A stretch of 64,000 nt of DNA, taken from the NCBI RefSeq assembly GCF_003122205.1, contig NZ_QEYE01000003.1, forward strand, positions 62,001 through 126,000, written 5' to 3'. The notes below the pieces were generated by a model that saw nothing but the letters and a program-made list of their open reading frames with translations, was not told where the DNA came from and searched no databases. Both the position numbers and the translations under genes were made by a program. The DNA comes from Maritimibacter sp. 55A14. GTDB lineage: Bacteria; Pseudomonadota; Alphaproteobacteria; Rhodobacterales; Rhodobacteraceae. Position 1 is the first letter of the stretch. Every line of letters begins with the position of its first letter. Below are positions 21,066 through 35,180 of the stretch, in pieces.

Positions 21066-22088
21066 TCAGTCGACACGTACCAGAAGCTTGCCCGTGTTCT
21101 CGCCCCGGTAGAGCATCCCGATCGCGTCGCGCGCGGCCTCGGCCCCGTCGAGGATATGCTCGCGCCAGACGATACGCCCGTCCCTCACCCAGCCGGCCAG
21201 CCGCGCAATGGCGTCCGCATAGGCGTCCTTGTGATCGAGAACAAGGAAACCCTCCATGCGAGCGCGCTTTACAAGCAGCGCGCGGTGTACGCGCGGGCCG
21301 TCGGGCCAGGGGTCCCAGTCGGTCACGGCGGCGGTGCCGCAGATGATCCAGCGCGCACCCGTCGCCATCCGGTGCAGGGCCGCGTCGGAGACCGGCCCGC
21401 AGGTATTGTCGAAATAGACGTTCCAGCCGTCCGGGCAGGCCGCTGCCAGCGCCGCGTCGAGCCCGCCGGCCTTGTAGTCGATGGCCGCGTCATAGCCGAA
21501 GACATCGCGGCAAAGCGCCGTCTTCTCCGGCCCACCGGCCACGCCCACGGTGCGGCAGCCCAGCAGTTTCGCGATCTGACCCACGGCCGAGCCGACCGCG
21601 CCCGCGGCGGTAGAGACCAGCACCATCTGCCCCGGCTCCGGCGCGCCCACACGGGTGAGGCCCAGATAGGCGGTCACGCCGTTCAGCCCCAGAAGGCCCA
21701 GCGCCAGGGATTGCGGCAGGTCCGTCTCCACCACCTTGCGGTCGATCGTGGCGCCTTCGACCAGCGCGTAACGTTGCCAGCCGAAGAGCCCGGTGACGAT
21801 CTCGCCCTCGGCAAAGCCGGGATGGCGCGAGGCCACCACCCGCCCCACGGCGAAGCTGCGCATCACCGCGCCGATCTCCACCGGCGGGATGTAGTTGGGC
21901 ACGTCGTTGACCCAGCCGCGCATCGCGGGATCCACCGACCAGAACGCGGTCCGCACCAGAACCTGTCCCGGACCCGGCACCGGGACCGGCCCGTCTTCCA
22001 CCGCGAAATGCTCAGGGCCTGGCACGCCCTTTGGCCGCGCGGCAAGAATCACGCGGCGGTTTTCCAGCCCCGGCATCGTTTCGGTCAT
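21066..22088 (-). CDS. NADPH-dependent medium-chain oxidoreductase (CurA/leukotriene B4 dehydrogenase-like)
   Basis: 340 aa zinc-free MDR protein with an N-terminal GroES-like half and a C-terminal Rossmann fold (STAAGAVGSAVGQIAKLLGCRTVGVAGG). The motif LGLLGLNGVTAYLGL and the NTCGPVSDAAL segment match the alkenal/one oxidoreductase group that reduces alpha,beta-unsaturated ketones and aldehydes. The stop of the regulator gene at 22,085 overlaps this start by 4 bases (ATGA), so it is cotranscribed with the ScfR-type regulator. The substrate is unknown. Confidence 0.82.
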   Translation of the reverse strand: MTETMPGLENRRVILAARPKGVPGPEHFAVEDGPVPVPGPGQVLVRTAFWSVDPAMRGWVNDVPNYIPPVEIGAVMRSFAVGRVVASRHPGFAEGEIVTGLFGWQRYALVEGATIDRKVVETDLPQSLALGLLGLNGVTAYLGLTRVGAPEPGQMVLVSTAAGAVGSAVGQIAKLLGCRTVGVAGGPEKTALCRDVFGYDAAIDYKAGGLDAALAAACPDGWNVYFDNTCGPVSDAALHRMATGARWIICGTAAVTDWDPWPDGPRVHRALLVKRARMEGFLVLDHKDAYADAIARLAGWVRDGRIVWREHILDGAEAARDAIGMLYRGENTGKLLVRVD

Positions 22089-23506
22089 GTCACCTCCCCG
22101 TCCTGTCCGATCGTGTAGGGCAGCACGCCCCTGACGTCGTGGTTCACCCGCAAGGGCCGCTCCAGCGGCGGCACGGAGCGCTGGTGGCAGCGCGTGCGCT
22201 CGCAGATCCGGCAGGAGATCCCGATCGGCTCAAAGGCGGCGGAATTGTCCACGTCCAGATCGTCGGCATAGACCAGCGCGCCCGCATGGACGACCTCGCA
22301 GCCCAACCCGATGGCATAACGCCGAAGCGGCGCCTTGAAGCTGCCGCCGGGCTTGGAGACGTCGCGCGCCAGGCAGAGATAACGCACCCCGTCCGGCGTC
22401 TCCGCCAACTGGCGCAGGAACTGGCCCGGCGTCTCGAAGGCGCGGTGGACGTTCCACAGCGGGCAGGCGCCGCCGAACCGGGCGAATTGCAGCCGTGTGG
22501 CCGAATGCCGCTTGGTGATCGTCCCCGCCTGATCGACCCGCACGAAGAAGAAGGGAATACCCTTCGCCCCCGGCCGCTGCAGGGTCGAGAGCCGGTGCGC
22601 CACCTGCTCGATCGAGGCGCCGAAGCGGTCGGCGAGTTGTTCCAGGTCGTGCCGCACCTCCTGCGCGGCGGACAGAAAGGCGCCATATGGCAAGAGCGCG
22701 GCGCCCGCGAAATAGTTGGCAAGGCCGATCCTGGCGATGGCGCGCGCCTCCTCGGACTGGAAGCGCGCCAGATCCAGCGTGGCATCCAGCAACTCGCCCT
22801 GGGTCAAGAGCGCTATCTGGTGCAGAATCTGGAACCGCTGCGTGGACGGCGCGCTGCGCGCCGCCAACGACAGCACGCGCGCCTCCGCATCGAAGCTGCG
22901 CAGCGCGGCGCCGTCGGTCAGCCGCACCGCTACGTCGCGCGCCTCCAGATAGCCTATGGCGGCGGCGAGCGGTGGCTGGTCGGCCTCTGCCAGCGCCCCG
23001 GCCACCCGTTCCGCCGCCCGGTCCACCGCGTCGATGTAATTGTCGCAGTAGTGGAAGAAATCGCGCACCTCCTCCCAGGGCGAGGGGCGGATGGCGCTGT
23101 CCTCGCGCCCCAGCGCCTCGTCGAGCGAAGCCAGTCGCTCGTGGCTTTGCCGGTAGGCGCGGTGCAGCTCAAGGAAGGCGCGCGCCAGTGCCGGCGCGTT
23201 CGACGCCGCGAGCCGCAGGTCGGCCAGCGGCGGCGCGGTGTCGGCGAAGACCGGATCGGCCAGCGCCTCGCGCATGTCGGTGACCATGCGCTCGGCGTCG
23301 CCGGTGCTCAGTTCGGTCACGTCGAGGCCGAACTCGCCGGCGAGCGCCAGCACCACGCCGGTGGAAACCGGGCGGTGGTTGTTTTCCATCTGGTTGAGAT
23401 AGGGCAGCGACACGCCCAGCTTGGCGGCGAAATCCTTCTGCGTCAGGCCGAGCCGCGTGCGCGTCTCGCGCAGCTTCACACCGGCATAGAGTTTCTGCGT
23501 CGCCAT
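22085..23506 (-). CDS. pccR: ScfR-family transcriptional regulator, likely PccR (propionyl-CoA responsive)
   Basis: 473 aa from ATG 23506. The N-terminal XRE helix-turn-helix (residues about 8-62) contains LRETRTRLGLTQKDFAAKLGVSLPYLNQMENN. A long helical ligand-sensing region follows, then an IrrE/DUF955-like segment. The C-terminal DUF2083-type zinc-finger-like domain has cysteines in ISCRICERTRC. Members (RamB, PccR) sense short-chain acyl-CoAs and bind TTTGCAAA-like DNA. The nearby pccAB, mcm and prpE genes and matching motifs upstream of pccB and of this gene support assignment as PccR with autoregulation. Gene identity is inferred from context. Confidence 0.82.
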   Translation of the reverse strand: MATQKLYAGVKLRETRTRLGLTQKDFAAKLGVSLPYLNQMENNHRPVSTGVVLALAGEFGLDVTELSTGDAERMVTDMREALADPVFADTAPPLADLRLAASNAPALARAFLELHRAYRQSHERLASLDEALGREDSAIRPSPWEEVRDFFHYCDNYIDAVDRAAERVAGALAEADQPPLAAAIGYLEARDVAVRLTDGAALRSFDAEARVLSLAARSAPSTQRFQILHQIALLTQGELLDATLDLARFQSEEARAIARIGLANYFAGAALLPYGAFLSAAQEVRHDLEQLADRFGASIEQVAHRLSTLQRPGAKGIPFFFVRVDQAGTITKRHSATRLQFARFGGACPLWNVHRAFETPGQFLRQLAETPDGVRYLCLARDVSKPGGSFKAPLRRYAIGLGCEVVHAGALVYADDLDVDNSAAFEPIGISCRICERTRCHQRSVPPLERPLRVNHDVRGVLPYTIGQDGEVT

Positions 23507-23576
23507 CACCCTGCACCCCGCCCGCAAGTTTGCCAATGCCGATCTGTCCTGCGCATGCGCCGAACGCCCCGCCTGA

Positions 23577-23613
23577 TTTGCAGATTTGCTGGCCGAGGTT
23601 AGCAATTGCAAAT
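23577..23613. promoter_or_regulatory. TTTGC/GCAAA repeat cluster upstream of the pccR-like gene
   Basis: TTTGC occurs at 23577-23581 and 23585-23589, and AGCAATTGCAAAT at 23601-23613, about 70-110 bases before the regulator start. The halves resemble the repeats before pccB, so autoregulation is predicted. The divergent coxG promoter lies in the same gap. Confidence 0.55.
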
Positions 23614-23736
23614 GGGTCGCGGCAAGACCCGGCGTTCCGGCGCCGGCGCACGCAGGCGTGACCCGCTCCGACATTTGGCGGATTGCAAGCACGCCCCGTG
23701 CGCCCCTATCCTGCCGCACAGGACAGGGAGGAGATC

Positions 23737-29821: not shown

Positions 29822-31084
29822 TCAGGCGGCGGCCAGGAGCCGCATCAGCCGCGGCTTGTCGCCCTGATCGGTGGCGCTGGCCAGCGCCCTGGTCAGTTCC
29901 TCCAGAGAGGCGATATTGTGGCCAGCCCGGAAACAGTCCACATGGGGTAGCATCGCCCGCACGCCCGCGGCGCGCGGTGCGAAACCTTCCCAGCGCAGCA
30001 GCGGGTTGATCCAGACGACGCGCCGGGCGCTCAGGTGCAGCCGTTCCATCTCGCGCGCGAGCCGCTCAGGCGCGCCACGCTCCAGCCCGTCGGTGATCAG
30101 CAGGACCAGCGCGCCGCGCCCCAGCACCCGCCGCGACCAGTCGCGGTTGAAGGCATGCAGGCAGTCGCCGATGCGGGTGCCACCCTCCCAGTCGCGCGCC
30201 TCCGCGCCAGCGGCGGCCACCGCGGCGTCCACGTCGCGGGCGGCCATTTGCCGGGTGATGTTGGTCAGCCGGGTGCCGAAGGTGAAGGCGTGGACCTTCG
30301 ACCAGCCCGCGCCGCGCGCGTTTGAGATGGCATGCAGGAAATGCAGCACGGCGCGGGAATAGGCCGACATCGAACCCGATATGTCGCAAAGCACCACCAG
30401 GTCGGGCCAGCGGGTGCGGCGCGCGCGGAAGGCCAGCCGCTCCACCTCGCCGCCGCGGCGCATCGCGGCGCGCATCGTGGCGCGCCAGTCGGGGCGGCGG
30501 CCCAGCGGATCGACAGCCAGCCGGCGCGTCTTGAGCGGCAGTACCGGCAGGCGGAGCCGCGCGAGAAGCCGGCGGGCCTGCGCCATCTCCTCGGCCGACA
30601 TCTGCTCGAAATCAAGCTGGCGGAGGCGTTCCTCGGCGGACATGGTCAGGCTTGCGTCGATCTCGATCTCTCTGCCTTCGCGGTCATCCTCCGGGAGGTT
30701 GGGCGCGGCGCGCTCCACGCCGTCGAGAAGCGCCTCGGCGGCGCGGCGTTCGGCGGCCTGCGCGTTCCGCTCTTCCCGCGCGCCGCGCACCGAGGGCAGC
30801 AACATCGCCATCATGTGCTCCAGGTAACGCGGATCACGCCAGAAGAGCCGGAAGACCTGCGCGAAGACGGCGCGGTGTTCGGGACGCGAGCAGAAGCAGG
30901 CGCGCAGGCAATAGAAGAAATCCGCCCGGTCGCTGAAACCGACCGCGGCCACGGCGCGCACTGCATCGACGATGTGCCCCGTGCCCACCGGCAGCCCCGC
31001 GGCGCGCAACGCGCGGCCGAAATGCGCGATATTGTCCGCGAGCCGGCCGTCCTCGGGCAACTCGAGCGGCGCGTATTCAACCAT
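29822..31084 (-). CDS. coxE: CoxE-type VWA domain protein
   Basis: 420 aa from ATG 31084. An N-terminal helical region with an Arg/Glu-rich middle is followed by a C-terminal von Willebrand A domain with the MIDAS motif DISGSMS. The match is to CoxE, partner of the MoxR-type AAA ATPase CoxD in maturing the copper-molybdenum site of CO dehydrogenase and relatives. The coxD-type gene lies directly upstream. No hydroxylase structural genes are in the window, so the client is unknown. The protein is cytoplasmic. Confidence 0.8.
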   Translation of the reverse strand: MVEYAPLELPEDGRLADNIAHFGRALRAAGLPVGTGHIVDAVRAVAAVGFSDRADFFYCLRACFCSRPEHRAVFAQVFRLFWRDPRYLEHMMAMLLPSVRGAREERNAQAAERRAAEALLDGVERAAPNLPEDDREGREIEIDASLTMSAEERLRQLDFEQMSAEEMAQARRLLARLRLPVLPLKTRRLAVDPLGRRPDWRATMRAAMRRGGEVERLAFRARRTRWPDLVVLCDISGSMSAYSRAVLHFLHAISNARGAGWSKVHAFTFGTRLTNITRQMAARDVDAAVAAAGAEARDWEGGTRIGDCLHAFNRDWSRRVLGRGALVLLITDGLERGAPERLAREMERLHLSARRVVWINPLLRWEGFAPRAAGVRAMLPHVDCFRAGHNIASLEELTRALASATDQGDKPRLMRLLAAA

Positions 31085-31112
31085 GGCGGCGCGCCCGGCG
31101 GCGGGCGCCGCG

Positions 31113-31163
31113 GCGGGGGTTTTCCACCCCCGCACCCCCGGAGGATATTTCGGGCAAGAAGAA
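31113..31163 (-). repeat. post-stop conserved element plus hairpin, copy A (after the MoxR gene)
   Basis: On the minus strand, right after the MoxR-gene stop, the sequence reads TTCTTCTTGCCCGAAATATC and continues CTCCGG. A 7 bp hairpin follows (GCGGGGG 31113-31119, CCCCCGC 31127-31133). A very similar element and hairpin follow the ggt stop at 60859-60908. It is likely a recurrent 3'-end/terminator structure. Confidence 0.5.
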
Positions 31164-31165
31164 CC

Positions 31166-32077
31166 TCATGCGGGCTCCAGCCCGGCGCGGGCCTCCTCAA
31201 GCAGGCGAGCGGCTTCGGAGCCCTGGATCTTCTGGATGTCGTCCTGGTATTTCAGCACCGCGCCCAGCGTGTCGGCGATCACATCCGGCGTCAGGCTGAC
31301 CACGTCTAGGGCGAGCAGGCATTTCGCCCAGTCGATGGTTTCGGCCACGCCGGGCTTCTTGAAGAGATCCTCGGTGCGCAGCCGCTGCACGAAGGCCACC
31401 ACCTCGCGCGAGAGCTGCCGGGAGGCGCCAGGCGCGCGGGCGGCAAGAATTTCCAGCTCCCGCGCCGCGTCAGGGTAGTCCACCCAGTGATAGAGGCAGC
31501 GCCGCTTGAGCGCGTCGTGCACCTCACGCGTGCGGTTGGAGGTCAGGATGACGATCGGGGGCGCGGGCGCGCGGATCGTGCCCATCTCCGGGATCGTGAC
31601 CTGGAAATCGCTGAGCGCCTCCATCAGGAAGGCCTCGAAAGGTTCGTCGGTACGGTCCAGCTCGTCGATCAGCAGCACCGGCGGGCCGCCGGGCTGCGGG
31701 CTCATCGCCTCCAGCAGCGGGCGGCGGACCAGGAAACGCTCGGAGAAGAGTTCGTCGGTGAGCGCCTCGCGATCGGTTCCCTCCACCGCCTCGGCGGTGC
31801 GGATCGCGACCATCTGGGCGGGGAAGTTCCATTCATAGACCGCGCTTGCGGCATCGAGCCCCTCGTAGCATTGCAGGCGGATCAGTCGGCGGTCCAGCCC
31901 GGTTGCGAGCGCCTTGGCGATCTCGGTCTTGCCGGTGCCGGCCTCGCCTTCCAGAAAGAGCGGACGGCCGAGCCGAAGTGCAAGGAAGACCACCGTGGCC
32001 AGCGCCCGGCCGCAGACGTAATCCTGCCCGGCCAGGAGCTTCTGCACGTCCTCGATGGACTGGATACCGGTTGTCAT
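31166..32077 (-). CDS. coxD: CoxD-type MoxR AAA+ ATPase
   Basis: 303 aa. Walker A is GEAGTGKTE, Walker B is LLIDELDR, sensor 1 lies in VILTSNRTREVHDALKRRC, and the C-terminal lid follows. The LLAGQDYVCGRALATVVFLALRLGRPLFLEG start is typical of CoxD/MoxR proteins. Paired with a VWA protein (coxE, next gene) it forms a chaperone-like remodelling system for metalloenzyme assembly. It is cytoplasmic and ATP-dependent. The gene upstream is divergent. Confidence 0.85.
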   Translation of the reverse strand: MTTGIQSIEDVQKLLAGQDYVCGRALATVVFLALRLGRPLFLEGEAGTGKTEIAKALATGLDRRLIRLQCYEGLDAASAVYEWNFPAQMVAIRTAEAVEGTDREALTDELFSERFLVRRPLLEAMSPQPGGPPVLLIDELDRTDEPFEAFLMEALSDFQVTIPEMGTIRAPAPPIVILTSNRTREVHDALKRRCLYHWVDYPDAARELEILAARAPGASRQLSREVVAFVQRLRTEDLFKKPGVAETIDWAKCLLALDVVSLTPDVIADTLGAVLKYQDDIQKIQGSEAARLLEEARAGLEPA

Positions 32078-32207
32078 GCGCGCCTCCGCCCCCTGGGATG
32101 TCTCGCGGGAGCTTAGCGGCGGCGCCCGGCATGGTCCACAGGCTGCGGTCTTGTCTGCGCGGGTGCGCTGCTATGTAATCGGGGGACAGCCCGGCAAGGA
32201 GGCCGCG

Positions 32208-33197
32208 ATGGCAGTTCATGTAGAGCAGGCGCCGGATTTCGCGGCATTGCCCGATCCCCTGGGCCTCGGCGGCGCACCGCGGCGCGTGGGCGTGGAGATC
32301 GAGTTCGGCGGGCTCGATACGCGGCGCGCGGGCGAATTGGTGCAGGCGCGTTTCGGCGGCCGGCTGGAGGTGAGCGGGCCACAGGACGTCAGGGTGCGCG
32401 GCACGAAGCATGGCGATTTCGAGATTTACCTGGACGCGCGCTGGCGCGATGCCGCGGACACGCCGCTCAAGAAGGCAGGGCTCGAGCTGGGACGCGCGGT
32501 CATCCCGGTGGAGATCGTGACGCCGCCCCTGCCGGTCGCGGCGCTGCCGGACCTGGAGCGGCTTCGCGCCGACCTGCGCGCGGCGGGTGCGCTGGGGAGC
32601 CGCGACGGGCTGCTCCTGGGCTTCGGATTGCATTTCAACCCCGAGGTGCCGGCGCTGGAGGGCACGGCGCCGGTGCATATCCTGACCGCCTTCGCGCTGA
32701 TCGAGGACTGGCTGCGCAAGCGCAACCCGATCGACATCAGCCGCCGTCTGCTGCCGTTCACCGACCCCTATCCGCGCAGCCTGATCGACGCGCTGGCCGA
32801 TGGCTGGCCGGACCTGGATCTCGACGGGCTTTTCGATGTCTATGCCGCCCACCGGCCGTCGCGCAACCGCGGGCTCGACATGCTGCCGCTGCTGGCGCAT
32901 CTGGACCGCGCGCGCTTCGACCGGCTCTTCGGCGATCAGGGCAAGCTGCGCGCGCGGCCCACCTTCCATTACCGACTGCCCGATTGCCGCATCGACGAGC
33001 CCGGCTACAGCCTGGCCGCCGAATGGAACCAGTGGGTGCTGGTGGAACGCGTCGCCGCCGACGCGGAAGCGATGGCCGATCTGACCGTGGGCTGGGACGC
33101 GCATCGCAATGCGTTCCTGAGCCTGCGCCCGGACTGGGCGCGGCAGAGCGGCGAGATCCTGCGCGCCCACGGCCATGCCGGAGCGCAGGATCCATGA
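32208..33197 (+). CDS. amidoligase-family protein (Amidoligase_2)
   Basis: 329 aa from ATG 32208, with AAGGAGG upstream. It is a glutamine-synthetase/COOH-NH2 ligase-like fold: the metal and ATP-binding strand VGVEIEFGGL (E30, E32), KHGDFEIYLD, EIVTPPLP, GFGLHFNPEV, a DISRRLLPFTDPYP segment and a C-terminal AEWNQWVLVE. These match the family predicted by Aravind and colleagues to form amide bonds on peptides or small molecules. The stop overlaps the next gene by 4 bases (ATGA); that gene encodes a class I glutamine-amidotransferase-like hydrolase. The substrate and product are unknown. Confidence 0.8.
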   Translation: MAVHVEQAPDFAALPDPLGLGGAPRRVGVEIEFGGLDTRRAGELVQARFGGRLEVSGPQDVRVRGTKHGDFEIYLDARWRDAADTPLKKAGLELGRAVIPVEIVTPPLPVAALPDLERLRADLRAAGALGSRDGLLLGFGLHFNPEVPALEGTAPVHILTAFALIEDWLRKRNPIDISRRLLPFTDPYPRSLIDALADGWPDLDLDGLFDVYAAHRPSRNRGLDMLPLLAHLDRARFDRLFGDQGKLRARPTFHYRLPDCRIDEPGYSLAAEWNQWVLVERVAADAEAMADLTVGWDAHRNAFLSLRPDWARQSGEILRAHGHAGAQDP

Positions 33198-33916
33198 GCC
33201 GCCCGCTGATCGGCGTCACCACCTCGTCGCGGTCGGGCTGGCGCATCTTCCCGCTCATCGCGCTCAATATCCGGCTGGCCGGCGGGCGGGCCGTGCGCTG
33301 GGGCGTCGGGCGGGCGTCGGACGTCGCGCGGGTGGACGGAATCGTGATCGGCGGGGGCGACGATATCTCGCCGGACATATATGGCGGCGCGCTGGTCGCC
33401 ACGGCACGGCTCGACCCCGACCGCGACCACTACGAGCGTGACCTCGTGCATGCGGCGGACGCCCAATCCAAGCCAGTGCTGGGCATCTGCCGCGGCGCGC
33501 AGATGCTCAACGTGGCGCGCGGCGGCACACTGCATCAGGACGCTTACGAGGTGCACCGCGAAAGCCGCCGTTTCCGCACCATCCTGCCGCGCAAGACCGT
33601 GCGGGTGGAACGCGGGACGCTTCTGGAAATCCTTGCAGGGCCGCAGGAGATGCGGGTCAACGCGCTCCACAGCCAGGCGGTGGACCGGCTGGGCGACGGG
33701 CTGCGCGTGGCCGCGCGCGACAGCGGCGGCATGATCCAGGCAGTGGAATGCGCAGGTGCGGTCTTTGCGCTGGGGGTGCAATGGCATCCCGAGCACCTGA
33801 TTTACGCCCGCCGGCAACGTGCACTTTTTGCCGCGCTGACCGCCGCGGCGGCGGGCGACGGCGGGACCGCGCGCGACGCGGTCGCCCGCGCCATTGCTCC
33901 GGGTCATTGCAAATGA
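33194..33916 (+). CDS. gamma-glutamyl amide hydrolase-like class I glutamine amidotransferase (peptidase C26)
   Basis: 240 aa. The nucleophile elbow GICRGAQ places C99 as nucleophile, with H198 and E200 in WHPEH completing the triad. The IVIGGGDDISPDIYGG segment is typical of PuuD-like gamma-glutamyl-gamma-aminobutyrate hydrolases. Translational overlap with the amidoligase gene implies joint action: it could hydrolyse gamma-glutamyl or isopeptide bonds made by the ligase, or feed it ammonia. No polyamine-degradation genes accompany it, so a classical puuD role is not supported. Confidence 0.82.
   Translation: MSRPLIGVTTSSRSGWRIFPLIALNIRLAGGRAVRWGVGRASDVARVDGIVIGGGDDISPDIYGGALVATARLDPDRDHYERDLVHAADAQSKPVLGICRGAQMLNVARGGTLHQDAYEVHRESRRFRTILPRKTVRVERGTLLEILAGPQEMRVNALHSQAVDRLGDGLRVAARDSGGMIQAVECAGAVFALGVQWHPEHLIYARRQRALFAALTAAAAGDGGTARDAVARAIAPGHCK

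Positions 33917-33959: not shown

Positions 33960-35176
<1,217 letters not shown>

Positions 35177-35180
<4 letters not shown>

Follow-up and report, generated by a model that had tools for sequence, protein, structure and literature searches.

A ligase–hydrolase gene pair of the families Amidoligase_2 and Peptidase_C26 in Maritimibacter and its association with the general stress response in related Rhodobacteraceae

Described relatives and the locus

Amidoligases resembling glutamine synthetase (GS), including the family Amidoligase_2 (PF12224), were reportedly predicted by Iyer et al. in 2009, their pairing with proteins of the class I amidotransferase fold being part of that prediction. 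These enzymes are widespread, and we know of no member with an experimentally characterised function. The ligase described here shares with them both the Pfam family and the GS-like fold, and the ligase–hydrolase pair is of a known but uncharacterised kind. A GS-fold ligase combined with a γ-glutamyl hydrolase of the family C26 is also the basis of the PuuA-PuuD and PauA-SpuA pathways; unlike PuuA and PauA, however, the present ligase is a small Amidoligase_2 protein of 329 residues without detectable sequence likeness to any PDB chain, and, unlike the Puu and Pau loci, the pair has no oxidase or dehydrogenase partners and is accompanied in relatives by stress regulators. Adjacent genes for a ligase and an amidotransferase-fold protein are seen in MurT-GatD as well, although MurT is a Mur ligase, whereas the C26 protein here groups with γ-glutamyl hydrolases. 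The modules of LUZ24-like phages also have in common with the pair a PF12224 ligase clustered with an amidotransferase, the phage one being, however, of class II (Gn_AT_II) and having an ATP-grasp enzyme nearby (PMC3890496). The window—the whole analysed stretch of 64,000 nucleotides from Maritimibacter sp. 55A14—encodes a protein, P0001, for which no PHROG match was obtained.

Both genes of the pair lie on the plus strand and start with ATG. The first (32208–33197) encodes the 329-residue ligase, assigned from Pfam, an AlphaFold2 model and invariant residues as an ATP-dependent amidoligase of the fold common to GS and glutamate-cysteine ligase (GCS), and the second (33194–33916) a 240-residue Peptidase_C26 protein (PF07722), assigned from Pfam, its model and the structural alignment by VIA as γ-glutamyl-hydrolase-like, with the triad C99-H198-E200. 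The stop codon of the former and the start codon of the latter overlap in the ATGA at 33194–33197 (plus strand), just as the earlier, sequence-only reading had it, and this overlap probably couples the translation of the two; a Shine-Dalgarno-like AAGGAGG (32196–32202, plus strand) precedes the start of the ligase. The long open reading frames on the opposite strand most likely represent shadow frames of high-GC coding DNA. The genome contains one PF12224 gene and, elsewhere, a second, ordinary C26 gene (G000:C12, E 6e-31).

Concerning the surroundings, a CoxE-type VWA protein (29822–31135) and a MoxR-like AAA ATPase (31166–32077), both on the minus strand and divergent from the ligase, make up an ATPase/VWA chaperone-type pair (29822–32077); they were rejected as partners, their adjacency not being recurrent. 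An acyl-CoA dehydrogenase gene (33960–35180) follows the pair closely, and among the sampled loci the same gene is found downstream only in the closest relative, L044; being common to just these two, it was likewise rejected as a pathway partner. The window also encodes a short-chain fatty acyl-CoA regulator (ScfRs, with IrrE-type peptidase and HTH domains) at 22085–23719.

Fold and conserved residues of the two enzymes

The ligase matches the Amidoligase_2 profile with E 6.2e-46 over residues 24–277 (profile positions 2–244 of 245), its score of 157.7 bits lying far above the curated cut-off of 22. The VGVEIEFG motif, already recognised in the sequence-only reading, spans residues 27–34; its E30 and E32, together with D76, E102, N144, D224, R250, H254, R256 and E280, are unchanged in 91/91 relatives, and these residues may, by analogy, have metal- or ATP-binding roles. 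A G-x-E-x-E strand motif of this kind is found also in YbdK and in glutamate-cysteine ligases.

The AlphaFold2 model of the ligase, built from an alignment of 37 relatives, has a pLDDT of 91.3. Its best Foldseek matches are YbdK, plant and bacterial glutamate-cysteine ligases and glutamine synthetases, none of them below E 0.001, the whole-chain likeness to YbdK and the glutamate-cysteine ligases being weak (E about 3e-3 to 8e-3, TM about 0.2–0.4). In the structural comparison with GS-like ligases proposed earlier, carried out with VIA-align, glutamine synthetase 5dm3 was superimposed with Z 12.4 and rmsd 4.3 over 221 residues and all 50 matches listed are glutamine synthetases; a sequence search against PDB chains yielded no match up to E 10. 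The ligase has both the common fold and the conserved acidic and basic residues of active-site type that mark the GS/GCS superfamily, and this fold match, taken with the invariant residues, makes it likely that the predicted enzyme is an active ATP-dependent carboxylate-amine ligase.

The partner matches Peptidase_C26 with E 2.6e-48 (165 bits, cut-off 20.5), and C99, H198 and E200, the intact triad noticed previously, are invariant in 83/83 relatives. In its model (pLDDT 90.5), the fold is nearest to known γ-glutamyl hydrolases: Lin1909, SpuA and PuuD, which are also the closest solved relatives by sequence, are matched by VIA with Z 27.3–30.6 (identity to SpuA and PuuD 31–36% in the structural alignment), whereas the glutaminase subunits of anthranilate, aminodeoxychorismate, CTP and GMP synthases reach, among the matches listed, about 20–21. 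By its model, the protein groups clearly better with the γ-glutamyl hydrolases than with glutaminase subunits, and it is predicted to be a hydrolase. The former designation as a class I amidotransferase-like hydrolase holds as far as the superfamily triad is concerned, and is narrowed here to the γ-glutamyl hydrolase type. The SpuA structure entries include a glutamyl-thioester intermediate, and the same chemistry would be expected for C99.

These comparisons bear on the alternative of an amidotransferase complex, in which the C26 protein would be a glutaminase channelling ammonia to the ligase for the formation of a primary carboxamide, as in MurT-GatD or CTP synthase. The intact triad of the class I amidotransferase superfamily would suit such a role; however, the model is far nearer to the γ-glutamyl hydrolases, with Z 27–31 against about 21 for the glutaminase subunits listed, and the motif LGICRGAQMLNVARGGTLHQD aligns with that of the γ-glutamyl-polyamine hydrolase SpuA. 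They bear equally on an amine utilisation of the Puu/Pau type, by which the ligase would γ-glutamylate an amine, an oxidase and a dehydrogenase would modify it and the C26 protein would free the glutamate. The combination of a GS-like ligase with a C26 hydrolase follows the logic of these pathways, and SpuA and PuuD are among the closest solved relatives of the hydrolase. The ligase is, however, not of the PuuA/GlnA type by Pfam, and the hydrolase scores 87.4 bits against the PuuD equivalog model (NF008471), the cut-off of which is 266. No PuuA-type ligase accompanied by an oxidase and an aldehyde dehydrogenase was found in the window or among the recurrent neighbours, no amine oxidase or aldehyde dehydrogenase being recurrent in the neighbour families examined or present near the pair in the window; the earlier remark that puu and polyamine genes are lacking in the vicinity agrees with the roughly 20 neighbouring proteins scanned. 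With stress regulation as the recurrent context, amine utilisation seems distinctly improbable.

Coupling of the ligase and the C26 protein across genomes

Loci around PF12224 genes were sampled from the same family (Rhodobacteraceae) and from the wider phylum, giving 91 homologous loci, in 83 of which the C26 gene directly follows the ligase gene on the same strand. It adjoins the ligase also in 76 of 80 named loci, a set overlapping in species with the former; the named relatives possessing the ligase belong to the Rhodobacteraceae, for example to Rhodovulum, Roseovarius and Salipiger. No natural fusion of the two was seen in the 91 loci. In three loci from outside the class of the window (L139, L140 and L142), a second C26 gene follows a redoxin gene, and a gene for a mechanosensitive channel is divergent from the ligase.

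Among 394 genomes sampled from the same family, with the paired-type C26 protein defined by E below 1e-60, the ligase was found in 71 and the paired-type C26 in 66; all 66 C26-positive genomes are among the 71, and the C26 is absent from every one of the 323 genomes that lack the ligase (Fisher 1e-69). In two genomes (G107 and G361), the genes are unlinked, both being retained; the separate C26 loci (L240 and L239, respectively) are without an EcfG box. The ligase occurs without the paired-type C26 in three further genomes (G061, G203 and G355), while it is divergent in G004 and a fragment at a contig end in G244; in G578, a ligase-bearing genome of another family, no C26 whatsoever was found at E 1e-5. 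Since the C26 is always accompanied by the ligase and some ligases are without it, the C26 needs the ligase, and the ligase can do without the C26. Independent action of either protein, named in the sequence-only reading as evidence against a coupled pair, is therefore partly the case for the ligase, whereas the C26 was never found alone.

The coupling is far beyond chance, and the two genes are a functional unit, probably forming one operon; the pairing proposed before is borne out both by the gene order and by the co-occurrence that persists where the genes are unlinked. The overlapping two-gene unit and the strict dependence of the C26 on the ligase would be in keeping also with ammonia channelling; on the other hand, some genomes keep the ligase without the paired-type C26, and one without any C26, where free ammonia could substitute, and together with the structural likeness this renders an amidotransferase complex rather unlikely. 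A co-evolution check by distance matrices was discarded as adding nothing, because the ligase–C26 correlation (0.30, 29 loci) was not above that between the ligase and EcfG (0.39). Arg179 of the ligase is lost in three of the five intact ligases without C26 (L076, L151 and L152) and in none of the 86 others (Fisher 8e-5), which may be a sign of an altered substrate, yet only as a hint, because two of these three ligases are divergent; R219 is lost in the L076 ligase as well.

Association with the general stress response

The genes neighbouring the ligase loci were clustered, and the representatives were scanned with Pfam. The commonest among them encode a HisKA_2/HWE histidine kinase, an ECF sigma factor and PhyR, which form the core of the general stress response in Alphaproteobacteria (PhyR-NepR-EcfG). 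PhyR or an EcfG-type sigma factor lies within about 6 kb of the pair in 30/70 same-family loci, in various arrangements (upstream on the same strand in 19, downstream on the opposite strand in six and upstream on the opposite strand in five); the chance of such adjacency, taking 12 kb out of a genome of 4 Mb, is estimated to be well under 1%. A strong PhyR is present in 61/71 genomes with the ligase and in 133/323 without it (p 3e-12). Like the other counts across genomes, this one treats related genomes as independent, and the p-values for the stress link are inflated by relatedness. A safer argument than these p-values is the scattering of the arrangements on the ligase tree, where the adjacency changes its state 14 times. 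The homologous pairs from outside the family are without PhyR or EcfG neighbours. Regulators of the Crp/Fnr type are a recurrent feature close to loci of the stress-response version (L044:7250–8377 and L067:1773–2504). Another context, RlmN-IalB-asparaginase (about ten loci), resembles a conserved chromosomal site and was rejected as a pathway.

The promoter regions point in the same direction. Within the 130 bp ahead of the ligase, an EcfG box (GGAAC-N15-18-CGTT) was found in 19/70 same-family loci, compared with 27/579 other genes of these loci (p 1.7e-8) and 0.13% of shuffles; with the looser second element NGTT, the count rises to 31/70, and at 24–40 bp the looser box is present in 17/70 loci versus 3/407 other genes (p 9e-13). 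The distances cluster at 32–36 bp, most often about 33 bp, a spacing that agrees with many EcfG targets of Sphingomonas melonis, in which many boxes lie about 24–35 bp ahead of the coding sequence (PMC6599016). Even the loci not beside the regulators have the looser box within 130 bp in 15/40 cases, as opposed to 21/407 other genes (p 2e-8). Species in which the pair has the box include Palleronia marisminoris, Palleronia rufa, Donghicola tyrosinivorans and Thalassococcus halodurans. Taken together, 45/70 same-family loci have a box or adjacent regulators, which connects the pair with the regulon in relatives, and 25/70 have neither; outside the family, the box was found upstream of the ligase in 0/20 loci. 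It should be pointed out that the motif alone was rejected as evidence: in the whole genome of the window, it has 89 matches compared with 110 for the reversed-pattern control, so it proves nothing by itself, and weight is given only to its placement ahead of the ligase and to its rarity before other genes.

On these grounds, the pair is read, with a probability of roughly 0.55, as a single operon whose products make and cleave a glutamyl-type amide bond, a module commonly induced by stress in the Rhodobacteraceae-type family. The ligase would use ATP to convert a carboxylate—most likely the γ-carboxyl of glutamate or of a glutamyl group—into an acyl phosphate before joining it to an amine; the C26 protein would form a glutamyl thioester on C99 and hydrolyse the same or a derived γ-glutamyl amide, so that the compound could be made and then taken apart. 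Under stress, the ligase would make the γ-glutamyl-type amide, and the C26 protein would reopen it once permitted by the conditions or by its own control. Against such a module it may be objected that simultaneous making and hydrolysis of the same bond would be futile without separate control. As the pair in this family commonly lies in a stress-response locus or has its own EcfG promoter, the product would most likely be a stress metabolite or a protective modification serving under osmotic stress, desiccation or starvation. It is also possible, albeit held more tentatively, that the pair acts as an effector of the general stress response that has so far gone unrecognised, making, and later opening, a new γ-glutamyl-type stress metabolite. 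This would serve reversibly as a store or protectant, and would differ from the Puu pathway as well as from the compatible solutes already known.

Genes for PLD-type, ferritin-like and PRC-barrel proteins stand beside the pair in some loci, and the recurrence of the first, of the phospholipase-D/cardiolipin-synthase type, would fit a modification of the cell envelope or of proteins, in which a macromolecule would receive an amino acid or amine through the ligase and be edited by the C26 protein. Protein and peptide ligases do occur among the related folds. The PLD genes may, however, be mere neighbours within the stress regulon, inspection revealed no obvious membrane or secretion segment in either protein, and no peptidoglycan or export gene is recurrent among the neighbour families examined; a macromolecular target appears very improbable.

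The link to the general stress response was missed by the sequence-only reading, the observations of which are otherwise confirmed and the interpretation partly supported. The link appears to be a new element, since a search of open-licence PMC papers yielded no connection of an amidoligase with the general stress response, PhyR or EcfG. It gives an initial indication of when the pair may work, under stress with EcfG on, and makes an open annotation directly testable in harmless marine bacteria.

Statistically strong at the level of the family, the link is not displayed by the copy in the window, which has neither an EcfG box upstream nor stress-response genes nearby, so that stress induction is not supported directly there. 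A sigma-70-like TTGTCT-N17-TGTAAT seen by eye upstream of the ligase was dismissed, the promoter scan not having called it. A PhyR-sigma-kinase locus lies upstream of the pair in L044, the closest relative (66% identical), and the simplest story would be that this side of the pair was rearranged in the lineage of the window. The PhyR gene of the genome is located on another contig (G000:C34:78116), and several EcfG-type boxes cluster within 6 kb of it (G000:C34:77115–82963), two of them overlapping on opposite strands at 78350–78381.
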